Origin: Axinella damicornis
Taxonomy: Eukaryota; Porifera; Demospongiae; Axinellida; Axinellidae
Length of the DNA stretch: 64,000 nt
Direction: 5' to 3'
Assembly: GCA_963931865.1 (NCBI GenBank)
Contig: OZ007506.1
Location: forward strand, 12,892,450-12,956,449
This document shows, one piece after another, positions 1 through 26,698 of this stretch. The position numbers and the translations under genes were made by a program. Below the pieces are notes generated by a model. It searched no databases, was not told the origin of the DNA, and saw nothing but the letters and a program-made list of their open reading frames with translations. How positions within the stretch are numbered: the first letter of the stretch is position 1; each line of letters starts with the position of its first letter.

Positions 1-100
1 TACTGCCCTTCCTCTCCCTCCCTGTCCTCCCCTGCACCACACACACACGCAACACACATACATACATGACATACATCACTCACCCCACATGCTCACACAG

Positions 101-809
101 GCACAATCCTTATCAGAGGCCAGAGAGTACATCCGCTTCATACCTTCCAGCGGCATTCTGGATCGCATCCAGCGAGGCGTTGTCAACACTTCCTTCGTCC
201 AGCTCGCCAACAGTGGGCCACGACAGGAGGTAATCTTCGTGCGGACTGTGGACCACTCCAGATGTAGTGAGGGACAGGTTTGCTGCTGCCTCACGGAATT
301 GCCCACCTGGCAGTACCCTCACCATGGCAACCACGCCGGGATATGAGATCTGTGCATGTGACCAGGGTCACCCAGATGTGGTGGATTGCGACAGAAGGAT
401 GGTTCTCCTGAGGGTGAGTAGAGACCATATCTGCTTGTTCCGATTGTTGCCTTTCATTTCACAGATACAACTATGTTTTGCAAATGAGATGCTGACACAA
501 AATGTCCGTCCAGCTTCTAGCATGTGTCAGGTCGTGTAGTTTCCATGAAGGCCTACCCACGAGATGCTGTTGCTAACGGTCACAGAATTTGTAACTTTCA
601 AGCCCAACTGCAGTCAACACTATGCACCAAGAATTAAGCAGCTGGTAGGTTATGTTAGTGAGCAAGACAGCTACATCGTCTGTGAAGTTTCTTCTCTAGC
701 TGAGCTTTTATCATTCTTTCCAAGTGTAATAAATGGTTGTTGAGAGTTAATGTACATGCACATCTGGACAGATGTGGTCGATTGCATCGGTTGTGTATAT
801 TCATGTCAG

Positions 810-844
<35 letters not shown>

Positions 845-2377
845 TCCCCTCTTCTCCCCTAACTTTATTCCCTCCCTCCCTCCACCTCATCCCTTCTCTC
901 CCCTCGTCTCCTCTTCCTCAGGATGGCCTGTGGGGGACAGTAGACACTACAAATAGTTCGCCTGGAGACCCCCTCTTCACCTACCCGTGTCCAGCTGGTT
1001 ACTGCCGCTGCTTTGTGCGCACAATCAGGGGGCCACAGTCATGTGATTATGTCATGGACAGCAATGACTTCAATCGCCAGTGTAGCTGTGACAGGCAGGG
1101 TCAGTGTATGTGCGTCTGTGTGTTCTGTGTGTGTGTGTGTGTGTGTAAACTTGTGGGCATGCGTGTGTGTGTGTGTTTGTGTGCAGCGTACGCGTGTGTC
1201 TGTGTGGTGTGTGGGTGTTTGCATGTGCACGTTGAAGTGCACTTCAATTCAAATTATCTTTTACTCCGTGGGATCAAACGTTTCTGGAAGAAGACTCAGC
1301 ACTTAACAGCGAGTAGCTTGGACGAGAGTCGAACCTCCACCTAACAGTAATTAGTGAGCTGTGCCTAATAACGCATGACTACGGTACTTCTGACAGTATA
1401 CTGAATTTCCAGTATAAAGTTCAAAACACTTGTGCACATGATATGCCATTTCCTGCCTCCCATACTTCCTGCCTTCCTTGCCCACTTCCTACCTCCCCGC
1501 CACTTCCTGCCTCCCCACCCACTTCCTACCTCCCCACCCACTTCCTACTTCCCCACCCACTTCCTGCCTCCCCACCCACTTCCTGCCTCCCCACCCACTT
1601 CCTACTTCCCCACCCACTTCCTGCCTCCCCACCCACTTCCTACCTCCAGGTGTGCTGTGTGGCAGTTGCAGATCTGGCATGGGAGTGACAGCCCTACTCA
1701 ACAACTGTGATACCTGCAGTGATGCATTTGGAACTCTCATTGCAGCCCTGGCTATCGTGGACCTGCTGATCTACCTGGCAGCTCTCACGTTTGCCCTCTC
1801 TTTCCCCCTCCCGCCATGGCTCTACCCTTGTGTGTTCTACCTCCAGATCCTCCCGCTCATGACGGACTACTTCCCCACCTCATTCGAGAAGTTTCGACCC
1901 TATCTCTACTATGTCGGAAGTGCACTTGGACTCTACTTTCCCTATGATTTCTGCCTATATGGAAATATGACGGAATTAGTCTCCTATGCTGTTAGATATG
2001 TGCCTTTCTTTGTAGCACTTCTGGTGTGTCCAGTTGTGCTGATTATCAGGTGAGTATCACAGTGGAACGTGTAATGCATTGTGGTCATGCTAAGCATTTA
2101 TGTAGTTGTTGATCCATTTACTAGTATGAAAACCTGCTCTTTCACTATAAATTACAAATTCTCTTTCACCATGTACACCTCAATACATACTTTATCACTT
2201 ACAGTACAAAATGTTTCACTTACTAACCTTGCTAACTCAGAGTAATGAAAATACAAAGTAGAGAGTCTTTCCGTGCTTGATAGATAGTAGCAAGCTTCCA
2301 TGCAGTAGCTTGCAAAAGCTTCCATTTTGTCGAGGACTTCTACTATGCAATGATGAGCACATTCTAAAGATCTGTCT

Positions 2378-2427
<50 letters not shown>

Positions 2428-3621
2428 GCACACACACACACATACACACATGCACACACACATGCACACACACATACACACACACACATGCACACACACA
2501 CATACCGCCACAGGCGGTATAAATTTCTCCCGGTACCCTGGCACGGGCTATGGTCCATCATCCTCTTCCTCTATACCCCTCTCGTCCACACTTCCATGTC
2601 CATTCTGAACTGCCCCTTTCTCCCGGGACAGAATGGCACAAGTGTACCTCGTTGGTTCATCAATGGAAACATGAACTGTTTCAATGGTGGACACATTCCT
2701 CTGGGCCTTCTTGCAATATTCATCCTAATCCTAACCACCCTTCTGGTACCATTACTAGCGATAGTCTCACTGGATCTAATTCATAAGGTGCGCTGGTCGC
2801 ACCATATGGTAGAGCCTCTTACGAATGCTTACAAGGAGAAGTACAGATGGTGGTCTGCGGTGGAGCTAGCCAAGAGACTGCTACTGTTGCTGTTCATCAT
2901 TGCATTTCCGACCAATGACTATCCAGCCATCTTCATCATTCTGATCTTGCTGTTTGTGGTGGGTTTTATTCAACCGTACAAACACTGGTCCTACAATACG
3001 TTGGATGTAGTGATGACCGGGAATATCCTAGTGTTACTGCTGCTGCGAAACACAGACCAAGTTGAAGAGGATTTCCAGGTCATACCTCCGCAGTCCCAGC
3101 TACGAAGGATGGGGCGTGGAGGTCGTGCAGAGTGTGGAGAGATTGAAGGAGTTACGAATATGACGTGGCTGCTTTTCCCGTTCGCATACTTTCCACTCCT
3201 CTTGACACTGATCATACTGGTTGTGTGGGCTGTGTACAAGGTAGGAGGATGTGTTAGAAGACTCAAGGGCAGCTGTCACAAGAAAGACAAGAAAGAGGCT
3301 GAGTTACAGAGGGTGACAACTTTAACAGTGCCTCAGAAACCTCGAACCACCACCATAGTGGACATGGCAGAACTGGAAAGCCCTACTAGCCCAGGAGGTA
3401 AGTATAAGCAGTTTCAGAGCCCAACCTTGACTATTGTTGATATAAAGGAATTGGAGGGAGAGCTGAATGCCTGTGATTCTCCAAGTATCAAACATGCAGA
3501 AGCAAGAAGACTCACCAGCTGGCCCATTGAACAGAACTCGAGTAGCAAGGATGATTCTAACACAGCACCAGGCCCCAGCTCTCTGCCCAGGACAATGGTT
3601 AGCATTGAAACCACAATCTAG
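101..3621 (+). CDS. Cysteine-rich multi-pass membrane protein, copy A (5' end uncertain)
   Basis: A plausible exon chain is about 263-413, 922-1099, 1650-2049 and 2514-3621. All junctions are GT-AG and the phases agree (0, 1, 2); the last three exons give 561 residues. The extracellular part has the order CPPG, CxC, YPCPxGYCRC, paired Cys, then VLCGSC and CDTC. About eight hydrophobic segments follow, then a charged cytoplasmic tail of roughly 120 residues containing repeated [13 protein letters not shown]-like strings. I recognise this layout from uncharacterised membrane protein families expanded in sponges and cnidarians; no function is known to me. The segment 101-262 follows a good acceptor (cacacag) but is open only in a different frame from 263-413, so it is either a frameshift or an exon I cannot resolve. 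The gene probably continues left of the window. Confidence 0.75.
811..843 (+). repeat. Pure C homopolymer, 33 bases
   Basis: Uninterrupted C run in the intron before exon 922-1099 of membrane gene copy A. It opens a long pyrimidine tract that leads to the acceptor at 920-921. Confidence 0.95.
1448..1645 (+). repeat. Pyrimidine-rich minisatellite before a 3' splice site
   Basis: About eleven copies of a 17-base unit (acttcctgcctccccac and variants with tacct or tactt) fill the 3' end of the intron and run straight into the acceptor cctccag at 1643-1649. The array acts as an extended polypyrimidine tract. It is absent before the equivalent exon of copy B, where unrelated sequence ends in ttcctccag. 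Confidence 0.9.
2381..2510 (+). repeat. (CA)n tract before exon acceptor, copy A
   Basis: CA repeat with scattered interruptions (gca, tgc, tac) filling the last 130 bases of the intron before the acceptor at 2512-2513. The same tract occurs in copies B and C with different lengths and interruptions. Confidence 0.95.
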
Positions 3622-3894
3622 TGCAGGCATTGTCAGTCTAGTTATGTGATGGTAGTATGACAGTTGTCCTCATCTGCAACTCAGTTCTGACAGTCAGGAA
3701 TCCATGCTGTTTTTAGTAGGATGTGTAAATACAGTATAGACCTATCAATCTGCCCCATGCGTTGGCTGTTTCTGGATATAACCGATCACGGCATTACATC
3801 ATTGCCTGCAACTAATCACCTCATTACATCATTGCATGCAACCAGTCACGGCATTACATCATTGATACATACTGTTACTGTTTTCCAACTGTCA

Positions 3895-5165
3895 CTGCTG
3901 TCTCCACAGTCACAACTGCCACAGTAGTCACAACTGTCACAGTAGTCACAACTGTCACAGTAGTCACAACTGTCACAGTAATCACAACTGTCACAATAGT
4001 CACAACTGTCACAATAGTCACAACTGTCACACAGTAGTCACAACTGTCACAGTAGTCACAACTGTCACAACTGTCACTGTAGTCACAACTGTCACAGTAG
4101 TCACAACTGTCACAGTAGTCACAACTGTCACAGTAGTCACAACTGTCACAGTAGTCACAACTGCCACAGTAGTCACAACTGTCACAGTAGTCACAACTGT
4201 CACAGTAGTCACAACTGTCACAGTAATCACAACTGTCACAATAGTCACAACTGTCACAATAGTCACAACTGTCACACAGTAGTCACAACTGTCACAGTAG
4301 TCACAACTGTCACAACTGTCACTGTAGTCACAACTGTCACAGTAGTCACAACTGTCACAGTAGTCACAACTGTCACAGTAGTCACAACTGTCACAGTAGT
4401 CACAACTGTCACAGTAGTCACAACTGTCACAGTAGTCACAACTGTCACAGTAGTCACAACTGTCACAGTAGTCACAACTGTCACAACTGTCACAGTAGTC
4501 ACAACTGTCACAGTAGTCACAACTCACAGTAGTCACAACTGTCACAGTAGTCACAACTGTCACAACTGTCACAGTAGTCACAACTGTCACAACAGTCACA
4601 ACTGTCACAGTAGCTAGTCTAGTGTCACAGTAGTCACAACTGTCACAGTAGTCACAGTAATCACAACTGTCACAACTGTCACAGTAGTCACAACTGTCAC
4701 AGTAGTCACAACTGTCACAGTAGTCACAACTGTCACAACTGTCACAGTAGTCACAACTGTCACAGCAGTCACAGTAATCACAACTGTCACAGTAGTCACA
4801 ACTGTCACGACTGTCACAGTAGTCACAACTGTCACAGTAGTCACAACTGTCACAGTAGTCACAGTAATCACAACTGTCACAGTAGTCACAGCTGTCACGA
4901 CTGTCACAGTAGTCACAACTGTCACAGTAGTCACAACTGTCACAACTGTCACAGTAGTCACAACTGTCACAGTAGTCACAACTGTCACAATAGTCACAAC
5001 TGTCACAGTAGTCACAACTGTCACAGTAGTCACAACTGTCACAGTAGTCACAACTGTCACAGTAGTCACAACTGTCACAGTAGTCACAACTGTCACTGTA
5101 GTCACTGTAGTCACAACTGTCACAGTAGTCACAACTGTCACAGTAGTCGCAGTTGTCACAGCTGT
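3895..5165 (+). repeat. 18-base minisatellite, left arm
   Basis: Several dozen head-to-tail copies of gtcacaactgtcacagta, with variants gtaatc and caatag and shortened units of 9 or 12 bases. Higher-order blocks recur: about 3900-4070 resembles 4140-4310. Confidence 0.95.
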
Positions 5166-5577
5166 CAGAGTGAGTAGTCACAACTCGCATTTTAGTCACC
5201 ACTTTTACAGTGGTACGTAGAGTAACTATTGACTGCCACAGTACTTTTGTGGTGGTCACCACTGTCACACTATAGGCATCACTATAGGTTGCGCTGATAC
5301 ATTATTTTAATTATTAAAGCATACTGATGAACAAAAATGCCATATACGTTAACTTTTTAATAGAACACTTTTTGAAGCTTTGTGCATTACACAACTTAGA
5401 ATCACAAATCCATGACATTCTCTTATTTATGATTTGTTGTCAGTTTTTGTATGGATATAACAAGCATTTGTTAGTTGTCCTTTTATTTCCTTTAAACGTG
5501 ATCTTTTATGGATATAACAACATCTGTTGGTTATCCCTTCATATTATCGTGATCTGTTGTTGAGTGACTACCTAATG

Positions 5578-6965
5578 TGACAGTTGTGACTAATGTGACA
5601 GTTGTGACAGTTGTGACTACTGTGATAGCAGTGACTACTGTGACAGTTGTGACTACTGTGACAGTTGTGTGATTACTGTGACAGTTGTGACTAATGTGAC
5701 AGTTGTGACTAGCATGCAGTGACTACTGTGACAGTTGTGACTACTGTGGCAGTTGTGACAGTTGTGACAGTTGTGACTACTGTGACAGTTGTGACTAATG
5801 TGACAGTTGTGACTACTGTGTACAGTTGTGACTACTGTGACTACTGTGACAGTTGTGCACGTGACTACTGTGACAGTTGTGACTACTGTGACAGTTGTGA
5901 CTACTGTGACAGTTGTGACCGTTGTGACTACTGTGATAGTTGTGACTACTGTGACAGTTGTGACTACTGTGACAGTTGTGACTACTGTGACAGTTGTGAT
6001 TACTGTGACTACTGTGACAGTTGTGACTACTGTGACAGTTGTGACTGTTGTGACAGTTGTGACTACTGTGACAGTTGTGACTATTGTGACAGTTGTGATT
6101 ACTGTGACAGTTGTGACTACTGTGACAGTTGTGACTACTGTGACAGTTGTGACTACTGTGACAGTTGTGATTACTGTGACAGTTGTGACTAATGTGACAG
6201 TTGTGACTACTGTGACAGTTGTGACTACAGTGACAGTTGTGACAGTTGTGACTACTGTGACAGTTGTGACTACTGTGTGACAGTTGTGACTATTGTGACA
6301 GTTGTGACTATTGTGACAGTTGTGATTACTGTGACAGTTGTGACTACTGTGACAGTTGTGATTACTGTGACAGTTGTGACTACTGTGACTACTGTGACAG
6401 TTGTGACAGTTGTGACTACTGTGACAGTTGTGACTACTGTGACAGTTGTGACTACTGTGATAGTTGTGACTACTGTGACAGTTGTGATTACTGTGACTAC
6501 TGTGACAGTTGTGACTACTGTGACTACTGTGACAGTTGTGACTACTGTGACAGTTGTGACTACTGTGACAGTTGTGACAGTTGTGATTACTGTGACTACT
6601 GTGACAGTTGTGACTACTGTGACACTAGACTAGCTACTGTGACAGTTGTGACTGTTGTGACAGTTGTGACTACTGTGATAGTTGTGACTACTGTGACAGT
6701 TGTGATTACTGTGACTACTGTGACAGTTGTGACTACTGTGACTACTGTGACAGTTGTGACTACTGTGACAGTTGTGACTACTGTGACAGTTGTGACAGTT
6801 GTGATTACTGTGACTACTGTGACAGTTGTGACTACTGTGACACTAGACTAGCTACTGTGACAGTTGTGACTGTTGTGACAGTTGTGACTACTGTGACAGT
6901 TGTGACTACTGTGACAGTTGTGACTACTGTGACAGTTGTGACTACTGTGACTACTGTGACAGCAG
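5578..6965 (-). repeat. 18-base minisatellite, right arm (inverted)
   Basis: Complement of the left arm, read here as tgtgacagttgtgactac. It contains its own higher-order repeat: the stretch ending gacactagactagctactg occurs at about 6620 and again at about 6840. The left arm has a matching agctagtctagtgtc at about 4612-4627. Confidence 0.95.
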
Positions 6966-7378
6966 TGACAGTATGTATCAATGATGTAATGCCGTGACAG
7001 GTTGCATGCAATGATGTAGTGAGGTGATTAGTTGCATGCAATGATGTAATGCCATGATCGGTTACATGCAGAAACAGCCCATGCGTTAGTTATTCATGAT
7101 TGTATTATGCCACTGTTCTTCAAATACAGTGGTGTTGCTGCTCTATAGAACATGCAGTTGGTGATGAACTGTTAGTTGACTGAACTTAATACCTTAATAC
7201 TTAACTCTGATATTCAAGCCCAAGGCCTTGATCAATGTGGGTTTGACCTCTTTCTGCATGACGTAGATTAGCTTATCATAACTGTAACAACCCATACAGG
7301 TCTCAGTCCACAGCAAGTGACACCAATTTTAGTATACGTTGGGTTGATTGAGGACTGGCAAATTAAGTGTAAATATTA

Positions 7379-7904
7379 CGAGGGGCAACCGCACTCCTGG
7401 TAGCCGCGTTGCAACCGGTTGCGACTCGACGGTAGCGCAAGCTAGGTATTGCAACTCATTCCAATTAACGCACATGCCACGTGAGGTCAACGCCGATCGA
7501 TTGAGCTGAGTCAGCAATGGCGGCCCAAGGACACACATGCAAGGAGAAGACAAGAAACTGTTACAGCGCTCACAACTTCGCCAGCACGGTGAGTTTGGCA
7601 TGTAAGCGTCAGTGAACGACAGCGATCACGGCCGTGTGGTCAGAATCTTCGTGTGACTTTCCTAAGAACGGTACTGCCACCGGAAGTCGAGAGAGCGCTC
7701 GCAATGGCGGCCAACGGCGAGACAAAAGCGTTCATATCTCTACCACCAAAGTGAGTTTCAGCACAATTATTTTGATTTTGTGTCACTGCATCATAGCGAT
7801 CACGACGGTGTAGTCAGAATCTTTGTAGCCCATTCCGAAGTAGTCAAACGTTATTTACATTATTTAATTACGCGGCACAATTTTTCCTATACCAGGAGTG
7901 TAAC
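7379..7904. other. Block-A-specific segment containing two first-exon-like pieces
   Basis: Block B runs directly from gtgtaaatattac to taggaatacg, while block A carries this extra segment of about 526 bases. It has short inverted matches near its ends (cactcctggta / taccaggagtg). Inside are two similar cassettes in which ATGGCGGCC starts an open stretch ending at a gtgagt donor: 7517-7588 (24 codons) and 7704-7750 (15 codons plus 2 bases). They look like duplicated first coding exons. I cannot find matching downstream exons, so an origin by transduction or promoter capture is only a guess. Confidence 0.45.
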
Positions 7905-8040
7905 TAGGAATACGTATCCGCATAATTGCCTCGCGCGCACGCCGCGGCCGCATGCGCAGCCTGGCCACGTGCTTACGAATTACGAGTATGATAGATCTCT
8001 AATAGCTAAGTGTGAATTTGCGAGTGTGGAGCTGAGATAA

Positions 8041-8250
8041 ACATGTCGATTACACTCACTGTTCGACTCCACATGTAGCTGCTCTAGCTCTGCAAGCCCT
8101 GAAGGCCCGCTCGCTTGTACCCTAGCCTCTGGCTACGCGAGACTATTGTGGAGTTGCGGTTTAAACAGATGTCGACTGTTTGACTCCATATGTAGCTGCT
8201 CCAGCTCTGCAAGCCCTGGAGCACCGCACGCTCGTCCACTGATCTGTTCC
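8041..8250 (+). repeat. Two-copy tandem repeat of about 120 bases
   Basis: The string ctgttcgactccacatgtag plus tgctc and agctctgcaagccctg recurs at about 8061 and 8184 with similar spacing. The equivalent sits in block B at about 16731-16920. No coding sense is seen. Confidence 0.7.
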
Positions 8251-8369
8251 TCAAGGTTGTAGTTCTCGCACCGTCGAGCCCTCGCAGCAAATAAAACTCA
8301 ATTGGCCGGCAGGAAACCCGCAACATTCCTATCGATCCTATCAACATTCCTGAGCATGACATATTCCAG

Positions 8370-8410
8370 TACGTACGTGCGTACGTACCACGTACGTACG
8401 TACATACGTA
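8370..8410. repeat. (ACGT)n self-complementary microsatellite
   Basis: Alternating acgt units with one ccacgt break. Block B has a longer allele at 17047-17096, so the array has changed length since duplication. Confidence 0.9.
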
Positions 8411-9870
8411 TATAGTGAGAAATAGATCCCCCATTCAAAGCCTCGCGCCAATGCACTCGGCAATGACTGTGGGTAAGCATCACTTGGACAGAGACCTAGC
8501 ACATGTAGCTAGGAAGTTTCCAAGTATACTTGGCCTAGCACCCAACATCAGTAATTGTAAGGTGCCAAATTGGTAAAAGTGCAGGTGGGGTGATGATTAT
8601 TTGGCCTACAGTTGCAGTCATATAAGGCCTGCATGACTAGCGCATGGCTTCGGGAGGTTTTACAGTTTAGTGGGGATGCCTGCTGAAAACTCAGCACATG
8701 TAAAGTCACTCTGAAGCTCAAGTTGTTATAGGGGCATATTTTCTGGACAGATGAGAAGGCCTACAATTAAGTGCATAGGGTGGAAATTAGCATCAATAAG
8801 GGGTTTCAATTAACATGGACCCATTCAGTATTGCCATATATACCTCTGTACGTCTGTACTGGTGGTGCATGCTGGTAGATTGAGAGTCCGTATATAGTGC
8901 TCAGCTCAGGCCTGCATGGGTTTGAATGCCACTAAAGCCCTTGACTTTTCTGTTGATGCCAAAGTCAAGTTCAAAAAAAGGGATTTGCCCTTCCAGAGAT
9001 GCAAGTTTGAGCAATGCCATTTATGGTAACTTCAGTGATGATGTCATCACCATCCCCAGTAAATTAATTAATGGGGCCCAGAACCTGAATGAGAACCTCC
9101 TCGTCTATAGCTCTGGGGATGCAGCATTTGTGGTTGTGGGTTATCAAATCCTATAACCTTATGTTTGACCAATGGAGCTGGTTGAATGCTATAGGGTGAT
9201 GTCGAGAGCTGGACGTTGTGTCTAAGGTGTACATGCCTTAACTTAAATGTCATTCGTGTGTGTGTATGTATACGTATGTATTCTGTGTGTGTACGTATTA
9301 TGTATGTGTGTGTGTTGAAATTCTGTACTGTGATAAAATGCGATGAACTTTGACTGAGAGTTCATCAGACCTCTACACAGAGAGCAGCCGGGCAACCATG
9401 ATAATGGAGTATCTCCTTATAGTTTTGCAACTGGAAGATGATTGATGGCTGTTACGGTTTTTGGGAACACTCACTCAATAGGCTTTCCGTAGTTTCATTT
9501 GACTCTGGTTCACCCCATTTCTTTGAAATAAGAATGATGGATCCGGAGTGCTTATGTAGGTGAATGACTTGAAGTAGCTGAGCGAGCGAATTATTATAAC
9601 AAAGTGGATCAGAGGGGGAAGCAAAGCTATAGCTAGCGTCTACATAATATTATCCAGTAATGTCTGCTCGCAAAATAGGCACACCTATACAAGGCTAAAT
9701 TGCTGTGCTTTAATGCAAAACTTAAAACAGGATGCAAGAAATGACCCAAAACCTCGAGTTGTGCAATAGCCAAGCTACCATTGGCACAAAGTATAAGTTA
9801 CCAACCCAAAGTACAGGAAACCACACATGCAGGCAAATGGATATATCTCCATAAACCTCTGAACAGTGTT
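8411..9870. other. Intergenic spacer, no gene seen
   Basis: Non-coding sequence shared with block B (17100-18535) and partly with block C (25540-26700) at high identity. The open frame at 8926-9156 is conserved in B but not in C and resembles no family I know. Confidence 0.6.
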
Positions 9871-9874
9871 GATT

Positions 9875-10922
9875 TCACACTATATCGGAGTCCACTTCAT
9901 CTTTTTGATCCAAATCAACAGCTTGCTTCTGGCAGCTACCACGACCCGCACTCTGCTCGTTGATGAGGCTCTCTTCGCTGTCGCTAATCTCAACCCAGCT
10001 CTGCCCAAGTCTCTGGGGCAGCACTCTACTCAGACACTTACAGAACTGGCAGTTACGCTTTTGCAGGAGCAGGCGAACAGTCACCCAAAAGCCATGCACA
10101 AAAACAAGGACTCCCAATATATGCAAACCAAAGGTGAGTGCAGCAAACAGTTCTCTCCGGTGCGGGTCTGAGCGTACCTGATGGTTACTATCGCAGGATG
10201 CTGCAATAGATCCTTGGTATAATTATGTGTGAATTTGGATTGTACAAGGTGAAGGCAATTCCAATGATCCATGTGCCACCAATCAGCAAACTAGATGAAA
10301 GACCCATGTTTATTAGCAGGTGACTCCCTCTGATCATACGTAAGAGTGAAAAGACGGCACAAGCTACTGCAGTTACCATCCAAAACAAGTGCATGCGAAT
10401 ATGCAGATCAGTATGGCATCCACGATGGTAATCCTGAATGTAATAGAGAAAACAGCTGGCTTGTTTTGGACGGAAGTGTAATGTGGACAGAAAGGATGTC
10501 TACGACGCCTGAAAGGATGTATGGAGTGTAAAGCACAGCATGTTGGAACTTGGTCACTTCAGGTGCCAGCTTGCCATCAGGTGTAAACACGTGGTGTATT
10601 CTCCAAACGATATGCTCCCGTCCATCTTTGTCATGTAGAACATCAAAACATAGTTCGATAATCATTCCAGCTACATGTGTATTCCAAATAGGATCTTGGC
10701 AATCGGTTCAATTGGTACCTTTGGCCAAAATGGTTGGGGAATCCAGGACAGATTCTGTGGAGCACTCTTGTACTTGGAACAGCAGCCACTGCCATGCTGA
10801 AAATGGTTTTCAATTTTTCGCCAATATCCAGCGTTGAGGTCGGCAAAGGATGTCAGAAACAGCCACCATACTCTGTACAAGATATTCCACGACCCTCCTA
10901 TTATGTGAGCTACAAAACTCAT
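9875..10922 (-). pseudogene. TMEM45/DUF716-like membrane protein, copy A (broken)
   Basis: Read on the minus strand from MSFVAH at 10922, the protein follows the TMEM45 pattern. An N-terminal hydrophobic helix is followed by a region ending ILFGIH, then VAGMIIELCF, VFTPDGKLAPEVTKFQHAVLY, the helix YILSGVVDILSV, and MHLFWMVTAVACAVFSLLRM...GTWIIGIAFTLYNP. A separate 3' part has a further helix (LFAALTFGLHILGVLVFVHG) and an acidic tail ending DEVDSDIV. TMEM45 proteins are seven-helix membrane proteins of poorly known role. Defects: a 2-base excess at about 10674-10678 breaks the frame between FGIH and VAGM, and about 20 bases are missing near 10425-10435 compared with copy B. A join between 10130 and 10240 also stays unresolved. 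The family match is my own recognition. Confidence 0.75.
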
Positions 10923-11173
10923 CTTGAAGGTAGCAAATATGGTTGTGACTGACTTCAGTTTAAAGAAACGCTCTCTTCGACTACAGCGCTTACTGCAAAA
11001 GAGAAGGGTTGCTTTAACCCAGCTCAGTTGCTGCTTCAGTATTGAACAAAGCAGACCATGCAATTACACTGCTAGAGGGCCTCCAACATCAGACCTGCAG
11101 ACGGGTAAACTATTCTATATATATCTACCGCACCAAGAGTTCATAACAATAAGAGTGTGCAACTGCCATATGG

Positions 11174-11399
11174 CAGGGTTTCATCCAGAAAAAAATGTTT
11201 GGGGGGGAAGTAGTGGCAAGTGCCGTGCAAAATGTTTTGAGGTTAATTAATTCCCCGGAAGAGGTGTGGCCTACAGCTGTATCTGAGTCCTAATATGGTA
11301 TTACCTATGATGTAATGATATAGTCAATCTCTTCTTTGGGGGGGAAGCTTCCCCCCTGCCCCCCCCCCCCCCCCCCCCCCCCCAGTAGATAAAACCCTG
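11174..11399. mobile_element. 226-base inverted-terminus element with poly-C core
   Basis: It begins cagggtttcatc and ends gataaaaccctg, which is an inverted terminal repeat. It is flanked by direct tatgg at 11169-11173 and 11400-11404. Block B has the empty site (gccatatgggttcc at about 22049). It contains a run of 25 C (11359-11383). A related end (taaataaaaccctg next to 33 C) occurs at 43426-43482. Confidence 0.8.
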
Positions 11400-11585
11400 T
11401 ATGGGTTCCACTACGGCCATCTCAGCAGTATGATGTCAATTGGTGTGGCCTACCTGTACACATAGGCTGTGTAAACTTGACTACTCATACTGATTGACTA
11501 CTCATACTGATTGACTACTCATACTGATTGACTACTCATACTGCTGTCATACTGCTGAGATGGTGGTAGTGGAACCCATATATGG
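11400..11585. repeat. Inverted repeat with internal minisatellite
   Basis: The arms gggttccactacggccatct / agatggtggtagtggaaccc enclose four copies of attgactactcatactg. The intact version in block B (22015-22340) has longer arms of about 70 bases. The left arm of this copy is split by the insertion 11174-11399. Confidence 0.85.
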
Positions 11586-11804
11586 CAGTTGCACACTCTT
11601 TTTGTTATGAACTCTTGACCGCACCCAACTTGTTAGTTCAACTGCTAATTGAGACGTGTTTGACATTTGGCTGGGGTATAATAATTTAGCATTTCTGAAT
11701 CCATACACTACTTGACCACTGAATAGCCTCCCATGCAGATGTATTTCAATATACCCCACCCAAAATTTTAGTTTGGCTGCTAACCAACTGCTAATTAATA
11801 GAAG

Positions 11805-12020
11805 ATGTGTTTGAAAGCATTTGACTGTGGACCAATTAAACATCCCTGGTTCGAATCCCACCTGTTGTTTCACATGGTAAAGTGCTTTCTTTACCCCTCC
11901 ACTCCTTGGCAGATCAGCCATTGGCTGAAAGGGCTTGGAGGTACAAGAGGCCACCCTCGAATAATAGCTGCACCTCCAGAAGGGCTGAATGAAATAAATG
12001 CCGCCCTTGTTTAGCATTAG
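11805..12020. repeat. Interspersed repeat with tRNA-like B-box
   Basis: It contains ggttcgaatcccacc, a perfect RNA polymerase III B-box type string. This is followed by a stretch (ctcgaataatagctgcacct) that recurs in block B at about 22985 and, inverted, at about 43670. The combination suggests a tRNA-derived SINE-like repeat. No poly-A tail is evident. Confidence 0.5.
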
Positions 12021-12029
12021 TAGCCTTGG

Positions 12030-12900
12030 CTAGCTACATGTATACACACAGCACATGAGCAACTTCGTGTGGATGGCCGGGTGAGGCACTTTGTCTATAG
12101 CGCTCAAGGAGAGAAGCGACCGTGATTGCTTTGCTGTGAGCATGAAGAGAGGAGAACAGACTGTTGGACATGTACCCCCGAGAGCTGTCTAGGAAAGTTT
12201 GGCATTTCCTGAGGCACAGAGGACAAGCGATGTGTGAGCGACCAAACCTTTCACAAAAGTAATGGCTTTGACAGTTTCCTGACATTTTGCCAGGATGATT
12301 TTGATGGTATGCTACCACACAGGGCAGAAGCGAAACTTGACTTCAATCTTCTTTACCAGCTTTTTCTTTGCTACAAGGCTGCTGCTGCAGTACATGATAC
12401 TGCAATCTGTTTCCTTGCTTCCTTGTTCATGCTGAGTTTAATAAATGCCTCCCTTATTAGTGGCCACCCTTGAATAGCAGCCACAGTAAATCGTGTGATG
12501 AAGTAAATAGTAGCCACGGTGTTTGATCACGGAAATACAGTAACTGCATGGCTGTGTATATAAAACATTGTGGCATTACGTACAGTACTACAGTAGTATG
12601 GGATATACGTACCCTTCAGTGTCCCTTGGCAAATATCAGTAGGTGTATGGTGTATTCTGTTGGTGTGTGCGTGTGTGTGTGCAATGTGTGTGTGTGTGTG
12701 CATGTGCTTCATGAATGTGTGTGAGAACGTTGACAAGGCAATGAATACTTCATGCAAGAAGTTTCGCAGATCAGGCTATCCATCAGTGGTATATATAGTT
12801 GATACGTGCAATTGGCAGCAAATGACAAATGAGTAGCTACATCTTCGGATTTTGGCAGTTGATTGCATATTTTGTTTGTGATTGCATGTTCAGACAAATG
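12030..12900. other. Spacer between blocks A and B, no gene seen
   Basis: 12030-12390 is the shared tail of the duplication. 12536-12655 is repeated at 26947-27056 at the end of block C. A minus-strand frame at 12034-12318 with a few Cys and His residues is retained in block B only in altered form. I do not call it a gene. Confidence 0.5.
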
Positions 12901-12905
12901 CAACC

Positions 12906-13555
12906 TTATTCGGCTAGCGCGCGCGCCGTCAATTCCATGGCGGCAGATTCCAATTACTTAATTGCGTGGGCGTTCATCACAGCTGCAACTGTTATAAACT
13001 ATCTTTGCTAGCCCCCTGCACTTTTCTAGGTAACAATCATCAGTGAATACAGTACTTCGGTTTGCGTAGGTGATAGAAGACTACATTGCAAGAGAGTCAA
13101 GCACGTTTACGGCGGCAGGTTTCGACGTTTGTGAAAAATAGTGGCTGCTGTAATAGTACCGTTCTCCATGGGCGTGGCTCGAGGTGGGGATGTGATTCGC
13201 CAGTGAGTTCCTGGACGTGCTCTGCAAGGCAGCTACGGCGAGGCTAGTGCCTTTTCAGTAAATAAATGCGCTCGAAAGTGTTACTCAGCTAGCGCCGACT
13301 TTGCAATACGCTCTTTGAGTCCGCCCACGGCTGTCCCTGAGCCCCTTCACATACGTCGAAACTTGTATCTCGTGAATGACTCTCTCTCTTGTAACGAGTC
13401 TTCCGTCACCTACAAAAAGTAATGCACTATATTCACTGATGATCGTTACCTGAAAACGTACGTAAAGCTAGTTTATAACAGTTGCAGCTATGCGGAACGC
13501 CCACGCAAGTAATTGGATTTTGCCGCTAGTGTCGGCGCGCGCGTTAGCCGAATAA
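12906..13555. mobile_element. Foldback element with arms of about 230 bases
   Basis: The ends are inverted copies ttattcggcta... / ...tagccgaataa. Arms at about 12906-13135 and 13345-13555 match imperfectly across most of their length, including tgcaactgttataaacta and caggtttcgacgt-like strings. It ends about 120 bases before the first retained exon of membrane gene copy B and may have replaced the 5' exons. I see no clear target duplication. Confidence 0.8.
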
Positions 13556-13673
13556 CCCGGAATTATATATATTATTGATCCGCAGACTATAAATCGTGGC
13601 ACAGTATATAGTGTTGTGTGGAGTGCTGTGTGGCTCTTTTTTCTGCGATCCAAAAGTATTAGTCTTCCTCCAG

Positions 13674-14422
13674 GTGTGCTGTGTGGCAGTTGCAGATCTA
13701 TGGGAGTGACAGCCCTACTCAACAACTGTGATACCTGTAGTGACGCATTTGGAACTGTCATTGCAGCCCTGGCTATCGTGGACCTGCTGATCTACCTGAC
13801 AGCTCTCACGTTTGCTCTCTCTTTCCCCCTCCCGCCATGGCTCTACCCTTGTGTGTTCTACCTCCAGATCCTCCCGCTCATGACGGACTACTTCCCCACC
13901 TCATTTGAGAAATTTCGACCCTATCTCTACTATGTCGGAAGTGCACTTGGACTCTACTTTCCCTATGATTTCTGCCTATATGCAAATATGACGGAATTAA
14001 TCTCCTATGCTGTTAGATACGTGCCTTTCTTTGTAGCACTTCTGGTGTGTCCGGTTGTGCTGATTATCAGGTGAGTATCACAGTGTAACGTGCATGTAAT
14101 GCGTTGTGGTCATGCTAAGCATTATTTTAGTTGTTGATCCATTTACTAGTATGAAAACCTGCTCTTTCACTATAAATTACAAATTCTCTTTCACCATGTA
14201 CACCTCAATACATACTTTATCACTTACAGTACAAAATTTTTCACTTACAGAAACCTTGCTAACTCAGAGTAATGAAAATACAAAGTAGAGAGTCTTTCCG
14301 TGCTTGATAGATGGTAGCAAGCTTCCATGCAGTAGCTTGCAAAAGCTTCCATTTTGTCGAGGACTTCTACTATGCAATGATGAGATCTGTCTCCACACAC
14401 ACACACACACACACACACGTAC

Positions 14423-14453
<31 letters not shown>

Positions 14454-14524
14454 ACACACACAATACACATACACACACACATGCACACACACACATGCAC
14501 ACACACACATGCACACACAAACAT

Positions 14525-14574
<50 letters not shown>

Positions 14575-15704
14575 ACACACACACATACCTCCACAGGCGG
14601 TATAAATTTCTCCCGGTACCCTGGCACGGGCTATGGTCCATCATCCTCTTCCTCTATACCCCTCTCGTCCACACTTCCATGTCCATTCTGAACTACAACT
14701 TTCTACCGGGACAGAATGGTACAAGTGTACCTCGTTGGTTCATCAATGGAAACATGAACTGTTTCAATGGTGGACACATTCCTCTGGGCCTTCTTGCAAT
14801 ATTCGTCCTCATCCTAACCACCCTTCTGGTACCATTACTAGCGATAGTCTCACTGGATCTAATTCATAAGGTGCGCTGGTCGCACCACATGGTAGAGCCT
14901 CTTACGAATGCTTACAAAGAGAAATATAGATGGTGGTCTGCAGTGGAGCTAGCCAAGAGACTGCTACTGTTGCTGTTCATCATTGCATTTCCGACCAATG
15001 ACTATCCAGCCATCTTCATCCTTCTGATCTTGCTGTTTGTGGCGGGTTTTGTTCAACCATACAAACACTGGTCCTACAATACGTTGGATGTGGTGATGGC
15101 CGGGAATATCCTAGTGTTACTGCTGCTGCGAAACACAGAACAAGTTGAAGAGGATTTCCAGGTCATACCTCCGCAGTCCCAGCTACGAAGGATGGGGCGT
15201 GGAGGTCGTGCAGAGTGTGGAGAGATTGAAGGAGTTACGAATATGACGTGGCTGCTTTTCCCGTTCGCATACTTTCCACTCTTCTTGACACTGATCATAC
15301 TGGTTGTGTGGGCTGTGTACAAGGTAGGAGGATGTGTTAGAAGACTCAAGGGCAGCTGTCACAAGAAAGACAAGAAAGAGGCTGAGTTACAGAGGGTGAC
15401 GACTTTAACAGTGCCTCAGAAACCTCGAACCACCACCATAGTGGACATGGCAGAACTGGACAGCCCTACTAGCCCAGGAGGTAAGTATAAGCAGTTTCAG
15501 AGCCCAACCTTGACTATTGTTGATATAAAGGAATTGGAGGGAGAGCCGAATGCCTGTGATTCTCCAAGTATCAAACATGCAGAAGCAAGAAGACTCACCA
15601 GCTGGCCCATTGAACAGAACTCGAGTAGCAAGGATGATTCTAATACAGCACCAGGCCCCAGCTCTCTGCCCAGGACAATGGTTAGCATTGAAACCACAAT
15701 CTAG
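13674..15704 (+). CDS. Cysteine-rich multi-pass membrane protein, copy B (5'-truncated)
   Basis: Two exons are kept, 13674-14070 and 14597-15704. The splice sites and lengths equal those of copy A apart from one codon deleted in the first (RSGMG becomes RSMG). Both are fully open, giving about 501 residues with VLCGSC...CDTC and all the transmembrane segments, and only a handful of conservative substitutions from copy A. The exons encoding the CPPG and YPCPxGYC modules are absent upstream; a foldback element sits there instead. No ATG with a plausible signal peptide is evident before 13674. Open frames after loss of the 5' end suggest recent truncation, a distant 5' exon or gene conversion. 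Confidence 0.7.
14395..14586 (+). repeat. (CA)n tract before exon acceptor, copy B
   Basis: Longer allele of the copy A tract with different interruptions (cgtac, aatac). It ends ten bases before the exon at 14597. Confidence 0.95.
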
Positions 15705-16007
15705 TGCAGGCATTGTCAGTCTAGTTATGTGATGGTAGTATGACAGTTGTCCTCATCTGCAACTCAGTTGTGACAGTCAGGAATCCATGCTGTTTTTAAT
15801 AGGATGTGTAAATACAGTATAGACCGATCAATCTGCCCCATGCGTTAGTTATTCATGATTGTATTATGCCACTGTTCTTCAAATACAGTGGTGTTGCTGC
15901 TCTATAGAACATGCAGTTGGTGATGAACTGTTAGCTGACTGAACTTAATACCTTAATACTTAACTCTGATATTCAAGCCCAAGACCTTGATCAATGTGGG
16001 TTTGACT

Positions 16008-18539: not shown

Positions 18540-21500
18540 TCACACTATATCGGAGTCCACTTCATCTTTTTGATCCAAATCAACAGCTTGTTTCTGGCAG
18601 CTACCACGACCCGCACTCTGCTCGTTGATGAGGCTCTCTTCGCTGTCGCTAATCTCAACCCAGCTCTGCCCAAGTCTCTGGGGCAGCACTTTACTCAGAC
18701 ACTTACAGAACTGGCAGTTATGCTTTTGCAGGAGCAGGCGAACAGTCACCCAAAAGCCATGCACAAAAACAAGGACTCCCAATATATGCAAACCAAAGGT
18801 GAGCGCAGCAAACAGTTCTCTCCGGTGTGGCCGCGGGTCTGAGCGTACCTGGCTACTACCGCAGGATGCAGCAATAGGTCCTTGGTATTATGTGCGAATT
18901 TCAGGTATGTTCAGACTCCAATTTTGGCAACTTAGGTGTCAACCAAAATTGCCGTTTTTGGAAACTGTTCACTATGGCAAATTAATGTAGGCGTCCACAA
19001 AGTAGCCAATTGTGGCAAATATGGTGTCAACAATAATTGCCAAGTTTGGCAATCTAATGTAGGCGTCCATAAAGTAGCCAAATGTGGCAAATATGGTGTT
19101 ACCAATAATTTCCAAGTTTGGCAATCTAATGTAGGCGTCCACAAAGTAGCCAATTGTGGCAAATATGGTGTCAACAATGATTGCCAAGTTTCACTATGGC
19201 AAATTAATGTAGGCGTCCACAAAGTAGCCAATTGTGGCAAATATGGTGTCAACAATAATTGCCAAGTTTGGCAATCTAATGTAGGCGTCCATAAAGTAGC
19301 CAAATGTGGCAAATATGGTGTCACCAATAATTTCCAAGTTTGGCAATCTAATGTAGGCGTCCACAAAGTAGCCAATTGTGGCAAATATGGTGTCAACAAT
19401 AATTGCCAAGTTTGGCAATCTAATGTAGGCGTCCACAAAGTAGCCAATTGTGGGAAATATGGTGTCAACAATAATTGCCAAGTTTGGCAATCTAATGTAG
19501 GCATCCACAAAGTAGCCAATTGTGGCAAATAATATTATGGTGTCAACAATAATTGCCAAGTTTGGCAATCTAATGTAGGCGTCCACAAAGTAGCCAATTG
19601 TGGCAAATATGGTGTCAACAATGATTGCCAAGTTTGGCAATCTAATGTAGGCGTCCACAAAGTAGCCAATTGTGGCAAATATGGTGTCAACAATAATTGC
19701 CAAGTTTGGCAATCTAATGTAGGCGTCCATAAAGTAGCCAAATGTGGCAAATATGGTGTCACCAATAATTTCCAAGTTTGGCAATCTAATGTAGGCGTCC
19801 ACAAAGTAGCCAATTGTGGCAAATATGGTGTCACCAATAATTTCCAAGTTTGGCAATCTAATGTAGGCGTCCACAAAGTAGCCAATTGTGGCAAATATGG
19901 TGTCAACAATAATTGCCAAGTTTGGCAATCTAATGTAGGCGTCCACAAAGTAGCCAATTGTGGGAAATATGGTGTCAACAATAATTGCCAAGTTTGGCAA
20001 TCTAATGTAGGCATCCACAAAGTAGCCAATTGTGGCAAATAATATTATGGTGTCAACAATAATTGCCAAGTTTGGCAATCTAATGTAGGCGTCCACAAAG
20101 TAGCCAATTGTGGCAAATATGGTGTCAACAATGATTGCCAAGTTTGGCAATCTAATGTAGGCGTCCACAAAGTAGCCAATTGTGGCAAATATGGTGTCAA
20201 CAATGATTGCCAAGTTTGGCAATCTAATGTAGGCGTCCACAAAGTAGCCAATTGTGGCAAATATGGTGTCAACAATAATTGCCAAGTTTGGCAATCTAAT
20301 GTAGGCGTCCACAAAGTAGCCAAATGTGGGAAATATGGTGTCACCAATAATTGCCAAGTTTGGCAATCTAATGTAAGTGTCCACAAAGTAGCCAATTGTG
20401 GCAAAATATGTGGTGTCAACAATAATTGCCACGTTTGGCAATCTAATGTAGGCGTCCACAAAGTAGCCAATTGTGGCAAATATGGTGTCACCAATAATTT
20501 CCAAGTTTGGCAATCTAATGTAGGCGTCCACAAAGTAGCCAATTGTGGCAAATATGGTGTCACCAATAATTGCCAAGTTTGGCAATCTAATGTAGGCGTT
20601 TCGTTGCTTGACACAAAGTTGCCAGAACTGGAAATAAGATTACTGCATATCTGCTAATTTACCACATTTGGCAATTCTTTGCTTGACACAAAGTTGCCAG
20701 AACTGGAAATAAGTGTACTGAATCTTTAAAAGTGCTTCCTGTGGGTATATAAGCAAGCATGGTTTTCATTTAAGAGCTTTTGGGGTATTGCAGAGGTTGC
20801 CAATTGTGGCAACTCTGCAATAGCACCAAGAAGTTGCCAATTTTGGCAACTTTAGTGGACATATTTTGCCAATATTGGCAATTTTCATGCCTTGCCAGAT
20901 ATGGCAATTTTCCTTCCAAAAGGAATTTCCATATCTGGCAATTTGTGAAAATTGCCATATTCGGCAAAATTTGTCTAAGAAAAGTTGCCAAAATCGGCAA
21001 CTTTGTAACCAAAGTTGCCAAAATTGGCAACTTTGGTTGACACCTAGGTTGCCAAAAGTGGCAACTGAACATAGCTCGCGAATTTGGATTGTACAAGGTG
21101 AAGGCAATTTCAATGATCCATGTGCCACCAATCAGCAAACTAGATGAAAGACCCATGTTTATTAGCAGGTGACTCCCTCTGATCATACGTAAGAGTGAAA
21201 AGACGGCACAAGCTACTGCAGTTACCATCCAAAACAAGTGCATGCGAATATGCAGATCAGTATGGCATCCACGATGGTTTAACAGCAGTAGCCCACTAAT
21301 CCAGAATGTAATAGAGAAGAACAGCTGGCTTGTTTTGGGCGGAAGTGTAATGTGGACAGAAAGGATGTCTATGACGCCTGAAAGGATGTAGCTATGGAGC
21401 GTAAAGCACAGCATGTTGGAACTTGCTCACTTCAGGTGCCAGCTTGCCATCATGCAGGTGTAAACATGTGGTATATTCTCCAAACGATATGATCCCGTCC

Positions 21501-25100: not shown

Positions 25101-26698
25101 GTGCAGACATTGTCAGTCTAGTTACATAATTTATGTGATGATAGTATGACAGTTGTACTCATCTGCAACTCCCTTCTGACAGTCAGGAATCCATGCTGTT
25201 TTTAGTAGGATGTGTAATACAGTATAGACTTCCTATCAATCTGCCCCATGCATTAGATTGTATTATGCCACTGTCACAGTAGTGTTGTTGCTCTATAGAA
25301 CATGCAGTTGGTGATGCATGAACTGTTAGCTGACTGAACTTACCTTAATACTTAACTCTGATATTCAAGCCCAAGACCTTGATCAATGTGGGTTTGATTC
25401 TTTCTGCATGACGTAGATTAGCTTATCATAACTGTAGCCACCCATACAGGCCTCAGTCCACAGCAAGTGACACCAGTTTTAGTATACGTTGGGTTGATTG
25501 AGGACTGGCAATTTAATTAAGTGTATAAACCACAATTATATTATGACCATGGGTAAGCATCACTTGGACATGCAGAAGACCTAGATACACATGTAGGCCG
25601 AAAAAAAAAGTGCAGGTGGGATGATAATTATTTGGCTTACAGTACTGTTGCAGTCATATAAGGCCTGCATGACTAGCGCATGGCTTCGGGAGGTTTTACA
25701 GTTAGTGAGGAGTGCACAATGTCATGCCTGCAGATCAAAACTCACCACAAAGTCGCTCCTAAGCCCTCTGAAGCTTGTTATAGGGACATTTTCTGGACGG
25801 ATGAGAAGCCCTAAAAGTGCATAGGGTGTAAATGGCATCAATTGACCCATTCAGTATTGTCTATACCTCTGGTGGTGCGTGCACTTGTACAGTGAAGTGC
25901 TCAGCTCATGATCAGGCCTGCATGGGTTGGAATGCCACTGAAGCCCTAATTGTTTTTCTTTGACGCCAAAGTTTCGGAGTTTACCCTTATTCCAGAGATG
26001 CAAGTTTGAGCAATGCCATTTATATTATGGCAACTTTGTTGATGAAGTCATTGATTAATTGGGCCCAGGAGCTGCATGATAACTTCCTCCTCTATATAGC
26101 TCTGGGGCTGCAGCATTTCTGGATTATAGTGAACTGTCCCTAACCCCCATGTGTTTGACTGATGGAGCTGCATGGTTGAGTGCTCTATGGTGATGTCGAG
26201 AATTTGATGCCATCGTGTCTAAGGTCTAGCTACGTACATGCCAATGTCATTTGTGTGTGTATGTATACGTATTCCATGTGTGTTGAAATTCTGTAGTGTT
26301 CCTCTCTGGGGTGATATAATTTGACTTTATGAGTTCGTCAGACCTCTGCACAGAGAGCAGCTCAGCATGGAGGATATTTCGATCCCTTAGTTTTGCAACT
26401 GGAAGATGATTGATAGCTGTTACTGTTATGGGAACATTCACTAATCTGCCTGAATATAGGCTTAACTTTCCGTAGTTTCACTTGACTCTGGTTCACCCCT
26501 TTCCTTTGAAATAAGAATGATGGGTCCAGAGTGCTTATGGGAGCTGTTACTGTTATGGGAACATTCACTAACCTACAAGGCAAAATTGCTGTGCTTATAA
26601 TAATTATTATACAAAACTGAAAACAGGATGCAAGAAAATTAATGACCTAAAACCTCAAGAGCTAGCTACCATTGGCAGAAAGTACTAAGTGATCAAGT
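25101..26698. other. Block C spacer, no gene seen
   Basis: Diverged match of the A and B spacers. It contains the empty target site of the 3764-7079 element (25247-25254). A local duplication of gctgttactgttatgggaac lies at about 26417 and 26530. Confidence 0.7.

Follow-up and report, generated by a model that had tools for sequence, protein, structure and literature searches.

A foldback transposon lies near the left end of the 64,000-nucleotide stretch of the Axinella damicornis genome analysed here (hereafter the window; GCA_963931865.1, contig OZ007506.1, C2:12892450-12956449), and its relatives were searched for in the 226-Mb assembly of 120 contigs. The element, which defines family A below, occupies window positions 3764-7079 on the forward strand (3316 bp), starts with GGCTGTTTCT and ends with AGAAACAGCC. 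Flank comparison placed the same 8-bp target site duplication (TSD), CATGCGTT, on both sides (3756-3763 and 7080-7087), and the interval 3756-7087 given in the initial annotation is exactly the span from one duplication through the other. From each end, the element consists of subterminal repeats, an arm of 18-bp minisatellite and a 0.4-kb middle domain. The left outer terminus, GGCTGTTTCTGGATATAACC, and its 30-bp subterminal repeats cover 3764-3907 on the forward strand (repeats at 3780-3864 according to Tandem Repeats Finder, TRF), followed by the left arm with 72.9 copies of AGTCACAACTGTCACAGT (3908-5161, forward; TRF) and the middle domain (5162-5575, forward). The inverted right arm contains 76.3 copies (5603-6951, reverse; TRF), and the right outer terminus with its 30-bp subterminal repeats completes the element (6970-7079, reverse; TRF repeats at 6965-7070). 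Long inverted tandem-repeat arms, an outer flanking domain and a middle domain are thus all present, as is characteristic of foldback structure. The arms had been described as about 1.3 kb built only from the 18-bp repeat; the length holds, but the arms match the consensus at 82-83% with 6-10% indels (TRF), and the outer 110-145 bp at each end is the different, 30-bp subterminal repeat. The two arms agree at 95.3% of aligned bases, gaps excluded.

The insertion can be read directly from two paralogous blocks in the same window, as had been proposed at the outset. The left flank (1364 bp) continues in block 2 to 15846 with 96.8% identity and in block 3 to 25254 with 93.2% identity. In block 2 the right flank resumes at 15839 (98.8% over 168 bp), and the flanks meet at a single CATGCGTT (15839-15846). 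In block 3 the site reads CATGCATT (25247-25254), 9 bp are missing just to its right, and the nearest match to the right flank begins at 25256 (89%, from query base 19); the site is thus empty but slightly diverged. Among 200,000 random window spans, 42 had exactly matching 8-mers at their two ends. Since both paralogues are empty, the simplest reading is that the element was inserted after the local duplication. A tandem array of a 72-bp unit (18975-20599; 22 copies, 93% matches) lies between the second and third site blocks.

A further copy sharing the termini was found at C11:11576763-11579294 (2532 bp), flanked by its own 8-bp duplication, GGCAGCCC, which together with the target duplication and the empty paralogues upholds the claim of a mobile insertion. 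The left arms of the window and C11 copies agree at 99.4% of aligned bases (648/652) and the right arms at 99.5%, with 0.5-0.6% substitutions, and the middle domains are 98% identical over 5165-5575 (402 matches, 3 mismatches, 6 gap columns). Gaps of 243, 171, 9, 324 and 23 bp shorten the left arm of the C11 copy, and the three large gaps (243, 171 and 324 bp) are multiples of 9. Since like arms agree at 99.4-99.5% between copies and the two arms within the element at 95.3%, elements moved as units, both arms included, and no homogenisation of the arms has followed. The divergence between copies (0.5-0.6% in the arms, 3/405 in the middle domain) is lower than that between blocks 1 and 2 (1-3%), which agrees with insertion after duplication; the window insertion is probably young. 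An assembly artefact at the window locus is unlikely, because the C11 copy matches it arm for arm at a different target. Other members of family A include a 245-bp remnant (L011, C5:8304710) between 14-bp direct repeats with an ambiguous duplication, a single end at C9:8478221 and more diverged ends. The flanks of three diverged A-like ends (C2:4940650, C4:12083338 and C4:12536113) are similar by eye, so that a single insertion, or else a larger repeat, may have been duplicated to give them.

Among the loci retrieved with the arm sequence, two additional terminus families were identified. The family B terminus, GGkkGTGACTTGGTGTTGCAAGCACC, has at least 37 matches in the genome, and the family C terminus, GGGTkATTCTTCATGTACC, has at least 17; some matches share one terminus, and these counts are lower bounds. 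For family D, represented by L028 and the C2 element's right end, no termini could be assigned. Exact 8-bp duplications flank 13 of the 15 two-ended elements of families A, B and C, which cover a minority of the 37 B and 17 C matches, and imperfect duplications flank L046 (7/8) and L042 (6/8). Outside these 15 stand L010, L011, L012-L016, L021, L026-L028, L035-L041, L047 and the C2, C8 and C9 elements, which lack two defined ends or, for L011, have the ambiguous duplication. L043 (C2:8015464, 3417 bp) and L046 (C2:7843369, 2314 bp) share the target AGATTTAC, which on one side of L046 reads AGATATAC; they are probably one insertion duplicated with its flanks, after which the arm lengths changed. 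As these two stand at one target, the 15 elements represent 14 insertions, 13 of them exact. In shuffling comparisons, none of 20,000 shuffles was as good as the match between the A and C right termini and 100 of 20,000 were as good as the weakest A-C pair; judged by these scores, the family A and C termini are related. The corresponding counts were 337-878 of 20,000 for A-B pairs and 22-1826 of 20,000 for C-B pairs.

The outer 35-50 bp is conserved across copies while the minisatellite arms differ. The family B terminus occurs with three unrelated arm repeats, namely, the GTCACTACT type (L022-L025), GGTAATGTAGGTAATACT (L042, L044) and TGGTCTCCCTTGGTCTCCAG (L043, L045, L046), and family C arms are of either the GTCAC type (C5, L019, L020, L048) or AACACAGCAAACACGAGG (L041, L047). 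Short GGTAAT-type stretches lie between the terminus and the TGGTCTCC array in L045, L043 and L046, and we read these stretches as what is left of an earlier arm after a newer one took its place at both ends. An 82-bp stretch at the right end is common to the C8 and C9 elements (score 127), whose adjoining arrays differ. Of the 21 arms measured, all but those of the TGGTCTCC type (10 or 20 bp) have a unit of 9 or 18 bp or a multiple thereof. In six of nine family B elements, the two ends bear different terminal motifs (GGGGG or AGGGG versus GGTTG). A 433-bp family C element (L048, C2:416870-417302), with an exact TSD, GAAATTTC, and very short arms, is an end state resembling a miniature inverted-repeat transposable element. 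Another family C element with an intact TSD, TCAGCTCC, holds in its core an open reading frame (ORF) resembling DUF6589 (L020:3718-4260; E 6.6e-4, below the Pfam cut-off), which has 15 matches in the genome and is either cargo or a nested element. A direct role of DUF6589 was dropped because, of the 15 matches, the one in L020 itself was alone in falling within 10 kb of the listed termini or of 24 arm positions hand-picked among the matches listed.

Larger elements contain genes between their arms. The family C element at C5:11445724-11457677, with the TSD GTTTCCCT, has a 6-kb core with a 275-amino-acid open frame for a P-loop ATPase. This ATPase has 45 matches in the genome; a large protein collection yielded 106 relatives, one of them from the sponge Amphimedon queenslandica. 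The C5 protein itself matches Pfam DUF927 weakly (E 0.017); the relative P0119 matches DUF927 at E 1.6e-7 with 31.7 bits (Pfam cut-off 22.6; profile positions 91-248). In alignment A1, comprising the C5 query and 43 of the 106 relatives hand-chosen for spread, 17 of the 44 proteins match DUF927 weakly (E up to 0.1), and other P-loop families also match weakly (AAA_22 in 10, T2SSE in 3). Precomputed labels among the 120 relatives listed from a wider search name DUF927 in three and T2SSE in one, and the DUF927 cut-off was exceeded by three of six scanned relatives, which were chosen partly for those labels. A search of solved structures with the ATPase profile returned one chance-level match (E 0.53), and an NCBIfam scan of three ATPase ORFs returned no usable family. 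By eye, the reverse complement of a 32-bp coding-like minisatellite in the window (44015-44181) resembles arrays in the C5 core (L017:5674-6011) and at L015:3926-4218.

Arrays of 9- or 18-bp units accompany the ATPase gene at five of the six loci examined with flanks, of the 45 matches. The C5 locus was chosen through the arm search, C2 and C1 for adjoining arms or a family C end, and C9, C8 and L050 by E-value; arrays occur at two of the three loci picked by E-value alone, L050 having none. Inverted arms lie on both sides of the gene in the C5, C2 and C9 elements, and repeat conservation in the C8 array is low (61% matches). The genes stand beside four different array repeats with 29-43% identity among loci, excluding the C5-C2 pair, which is 98.6% identical over 147 residues and has the same array type. 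In family B, a tail exon resembling the one in the C9 ATPase-type gene persists in L042 (24 residues, 58%, E 4e-5), and L044 matches L042; these remnants contain frame breaks.

The middle domain links the window element to these gene-bearing elements, since it shares sequence with B, C and C2 elements. Positions 5385-5565 (forward strand) are homologous to the family B cores of L023 (75.5%), L024 and L025 (69.7%). A conserved motif near GGATATAACAAGCATTTGTTAGTTGTCC (5451-5480, forward), common to gene-bearing elements, recurs in a second copy at 5510-5536 (forward), and in the C5 and C2 elements it stands between the ATPase gene and the right arm, directly following the gene. Because of this position, the window element is probably an internal-deletion derivative of gene-bearing elements, as far as the sequences indicate. 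For the inner edge of the right arm, covariation gave no support for a conserved stem-loop, since no pair showed changes on both sides; what remains is a conserved motif.

A profile search of the genome for the transposase domain of Mutator-like elements (MULEs; PF10551) gave 51 matches, two of which lie 4.2-4.5 kb from ATPase exons: C9:10647065-10647346, in an 844-amino-acid frame (E 2.7e-11), and C8:10835316-10835597, in an 852-amino-acid frame (E 1.8e-11). A third match (C9:10639232) is 12 kb off. Over the 249-residue N-terminal part, the C9 and C8 MULE sequences are 100% identical where aligned, with the C8 match 8 codons longer than that of C9 and the next best match at 40%, which suggests recent movement. 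The N-terminal regions (C9:10647500-10648246, C8:10834392-10835162), identical where aligned, adjoin ATPase genes that are strongly diverged. The C-terminal part of the C8 copy is PHD-like (PF00628, E 6.2e-5). Past the C8 transposase stop lies a short array about 90% like the C9 right arm, and for this reason an inverted left arm was predicted past the MULE stop at C9. It was found as an inverted array of about 0.7 kb in 831 bases, running off the end, and the order of the C9 element is left arm, MULE, ATPase and right arm.

We consider it likely that the window element is a non-autonomous, trans-mobilised foldback of the Mutator/Rehavkus kind. A transposase made elsewhere would recognise the outer 20-50 bp or so and excise the element, which would then reinsert at a staggered 8-bp cut; the duplications and empty sites are observed, and cut-and-paste is inferred from them. 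The transposase would most likely be a MULE of the Mutator superfamily, and Rehavkus-like in its MULE domain, PHD-like C-terminal end and adjoining minisatellite. The arms would be amplified subterminal repeats whose large length changes occur in whole 9-bp units, with entire arm types seemingly replaced on both sides under constant termini. Most likely they would serve as arrays of binding sites for proteins, through which the two ends are brought together. The 8-bp duplications of families A, B and C fall within the MULE range of 8-11 bp, the MULE-bearing C9 element being outside the measured set.

Several observations weigh against this assignment. The PHD match of the MULE ORF falls just short of the cut-off (23.4 bits vs 24), and an unrelated family matches its N-terminal part at least as well as FAR1 does (E 0.009). 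MULE and ATPase are divergent in C9 and run in the same direction in C8. None of the 51 PF10551 matches lies in the C5 element, the C2 element or the window. Thirteen C5-core frames scanned against Pfam contained no transposase domain; these comprised one L018 frame and 12 of 33 stop-to-stop frames (55 amino acids or longer) in L017 4357-9901, the remaining L017 frames being in the arm, overlapping scanned frames, of low complexity or left out. A tblastn search with the MULE N- and C-terminal parts gave no second copy in the other retrieved loci, and the 20-kb surroundings of the listed A, B and C termini contain a single MULE match (C2:406817, at 10 kb from L048). The two MULE-ATPase pairs could reflect chance clustering (0.10 pairs expected, P about 0.005), and the choice of C5, C2 and C1 through arms or termini biases the five-of-six array count. 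Family B termini have no clear kinship to those of family A, the best C-B pair (22 of 20,000 shuffles) being suggestive only, and Rehavkus makes 9-bp duplications, in contrast to the 8 bp of families A, B and C. The link from the MULE to the window element is therefore indirect, running through the ATPase gene and the arm architecture rather than through common termini, the sequence covered at C9 stopping short of its termini and duplication. The MULE assignment of family A is probable.

The strongest rival to the functional part of this account, which we regard as possible but doubtful, is that the ATPase is mere captured cargo in the style of Pack-MULEs, unrelated to mobility, and that the arms are neutral repeat expansions. 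MULEs often bear host gene fragments (PMC5225508), L020 has the DUF6589-like ORF in place of the ATPase, and L050, one of the six ATPase loci covered with flanks among 45 matches, has no arrays. The presence of the gene beside four different array repeats, with the low identity among loci noted above, speaks instead for an association that looks old and repeated rather than a single capture. Another explanation, suggested in the initial annotation, places the importance of the arms in a long-hairpin transcript, produced by read-through, that would feed putative small RNAs; arms of about 1.3 kb that agree so closely fit such a transcript, and we judge this improbable.

A more elaborate possibility, proposed by analogy and to which we likewise attach little probability, is that these are two-gene giant foldbacks in which a DUF927-type self-loading helicase would recognise the 9-bp arm repeats as iterons, like the replication-initiator helicases of bacterial mobile islands, with each ATPase lineage selecting its own arm motif. 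The occurrence of diverged ATPase genes beside different arrays, and of the near-identical C5 and C2 genes beside one array, is consistent with this proposal. Bacterial DUF927 proteins have been likened to such initiator helicases, and the iteron-dependent helicase Cch2 is not itself of the DUF927 type. If the proposal were true, the arms would be replication or loading arrays rather than passive terminal inverted repeats (TIRs), and arm swapping would be a trace of helper switching.

Movement by a P-type transposase, as in the Drosophila foldback Galileo, appears very unlikely. Galileo is a P-type foldback with conservation of about 40 bp at the ends and arm tandem repeats that bind the transposase (PMC3688188), and the sponge genome has 67 PF21787 matches. 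However, none of the 67 lies within 20 kb of the 66 listed A, B or C terminus matches or the 45 ATPase matches, interiors having been read for a minority of the terminus-bearing elements, and the genes that are found between arms are the MULE ORF and the ATPase. The Merlin superfamily, whose terminal 5'-GG-3' and 8- or 9-bp duplications resemble the signature of these termini, was rejected as highly improbable, because the assembly gave no match to PF12762 (DDE_Tnp_IS1595), although intron-split or highly diverged copies could escape such a search. For KDZ/Zisupton, 24 PF18758 matches were obtained, none within 20 kb of the 66 listed terminus matches; eight KDZ loci have nearly the same score pattern with in-frame stops, which suggest a recently amplified KDZ family in the genome.

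The initial annotation recognised foldbacks with repeat-built arms as known but called a sponge-type element of this form new to it; the form has precedents in Galileo, Tetris, Tm1 and the Muta/Phantom and Rehavkus MULEs, in which the ends are repeat-built or bear minisatellites. Sea urchin TU elements are foldbacks of modular build, with outer arms of tandem repeats and with duplications of 8 bp, a likeness by description and not by sequence. A sea urchin foldback case is cited in PMC4079207, which gives duplications of 8-10 bp for Tetris. MULEs make duplications of 8-11 bp, and MULEs other than Rehavkus contain extra ORFs (PMC6446971). Rehavkus has a PHD finger, a minisatellite ahead of the 3' TIR and 9-bp duplications, and occurs in arthropods and annelids (PMC6446971). 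The C8 and C9 elements resemble it in the MULE domain and the minisatellite adjoining the transposase ORF, and perhaps in the C-terminal end, where the PHD-like match of the C8 copy lies just below the cut-off. In the sponge elements, both inverted arms, up to 4.3 kb long, are minisatellite, whereas Rehavkus TIRs are 26-400 bp; a second gene, the DUF927-type ATPase, is present, unlike in Rehavkus; and the host is a sponge. Since families A, B and C have duplications of 8 bp, not 9, the elements are not classed as Rehavkus proper.

Tm1, a Mutator/Foldback family of root-knot nematodes and a Phantom-like MULE, likewise has composite TIRs with a short tandem motif, two ends with differing terminal motifs and many non-autonomous members (PMC3169594). 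Its motif is about 14 bp and its duplications 9 bp, whereas the sponge elements have 9-, 18- or 20-bp units, 8-bp duplications and varied arms under one terminus. Aedes MULEs make duplications of 8-9 bp, and 10 of 12 long-TIR families have subterminal tandem repeats of 9-15 bp (PMC5225508). Muta1 and the Aedes MULEs share with the sponge elements duplications of 8-9 bp, a terminal motif followed by subterminal repeats and non-autonomous members of variable repeat number; the 145-bp TIR of Muta1 contains 9 repeat copies, compared with at least 70 copies per arm here. Galileo is similar in its long, internally repetitive TIRs and end conservation of about 40 bp, but belongs to another transposase superfamily, and the accessible portion of PMC3688188 makes no mention of unrelated, interchangeable repeats under one terminus. 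Among titles and abstract openings, with subscription papers mostly outside this coverage, no report was found that combines foldback or minisatellite arms, a MULE, DUF927 and a sponge.

Foldback elements have been known for decades, and the reason for their repeat-built arms and the identity of their mover have often been obscure. The A. damicornis genome contains a fixed terminus with unrelated arms, apparent remnants of replaced arms, near-identical copies with unequal arms, and a MULE together with a helicase-like gene, thereby making the question of arm function testable by binding and transposition assays. The MULE/Rehavkus type of foldback would extend to a sponge.

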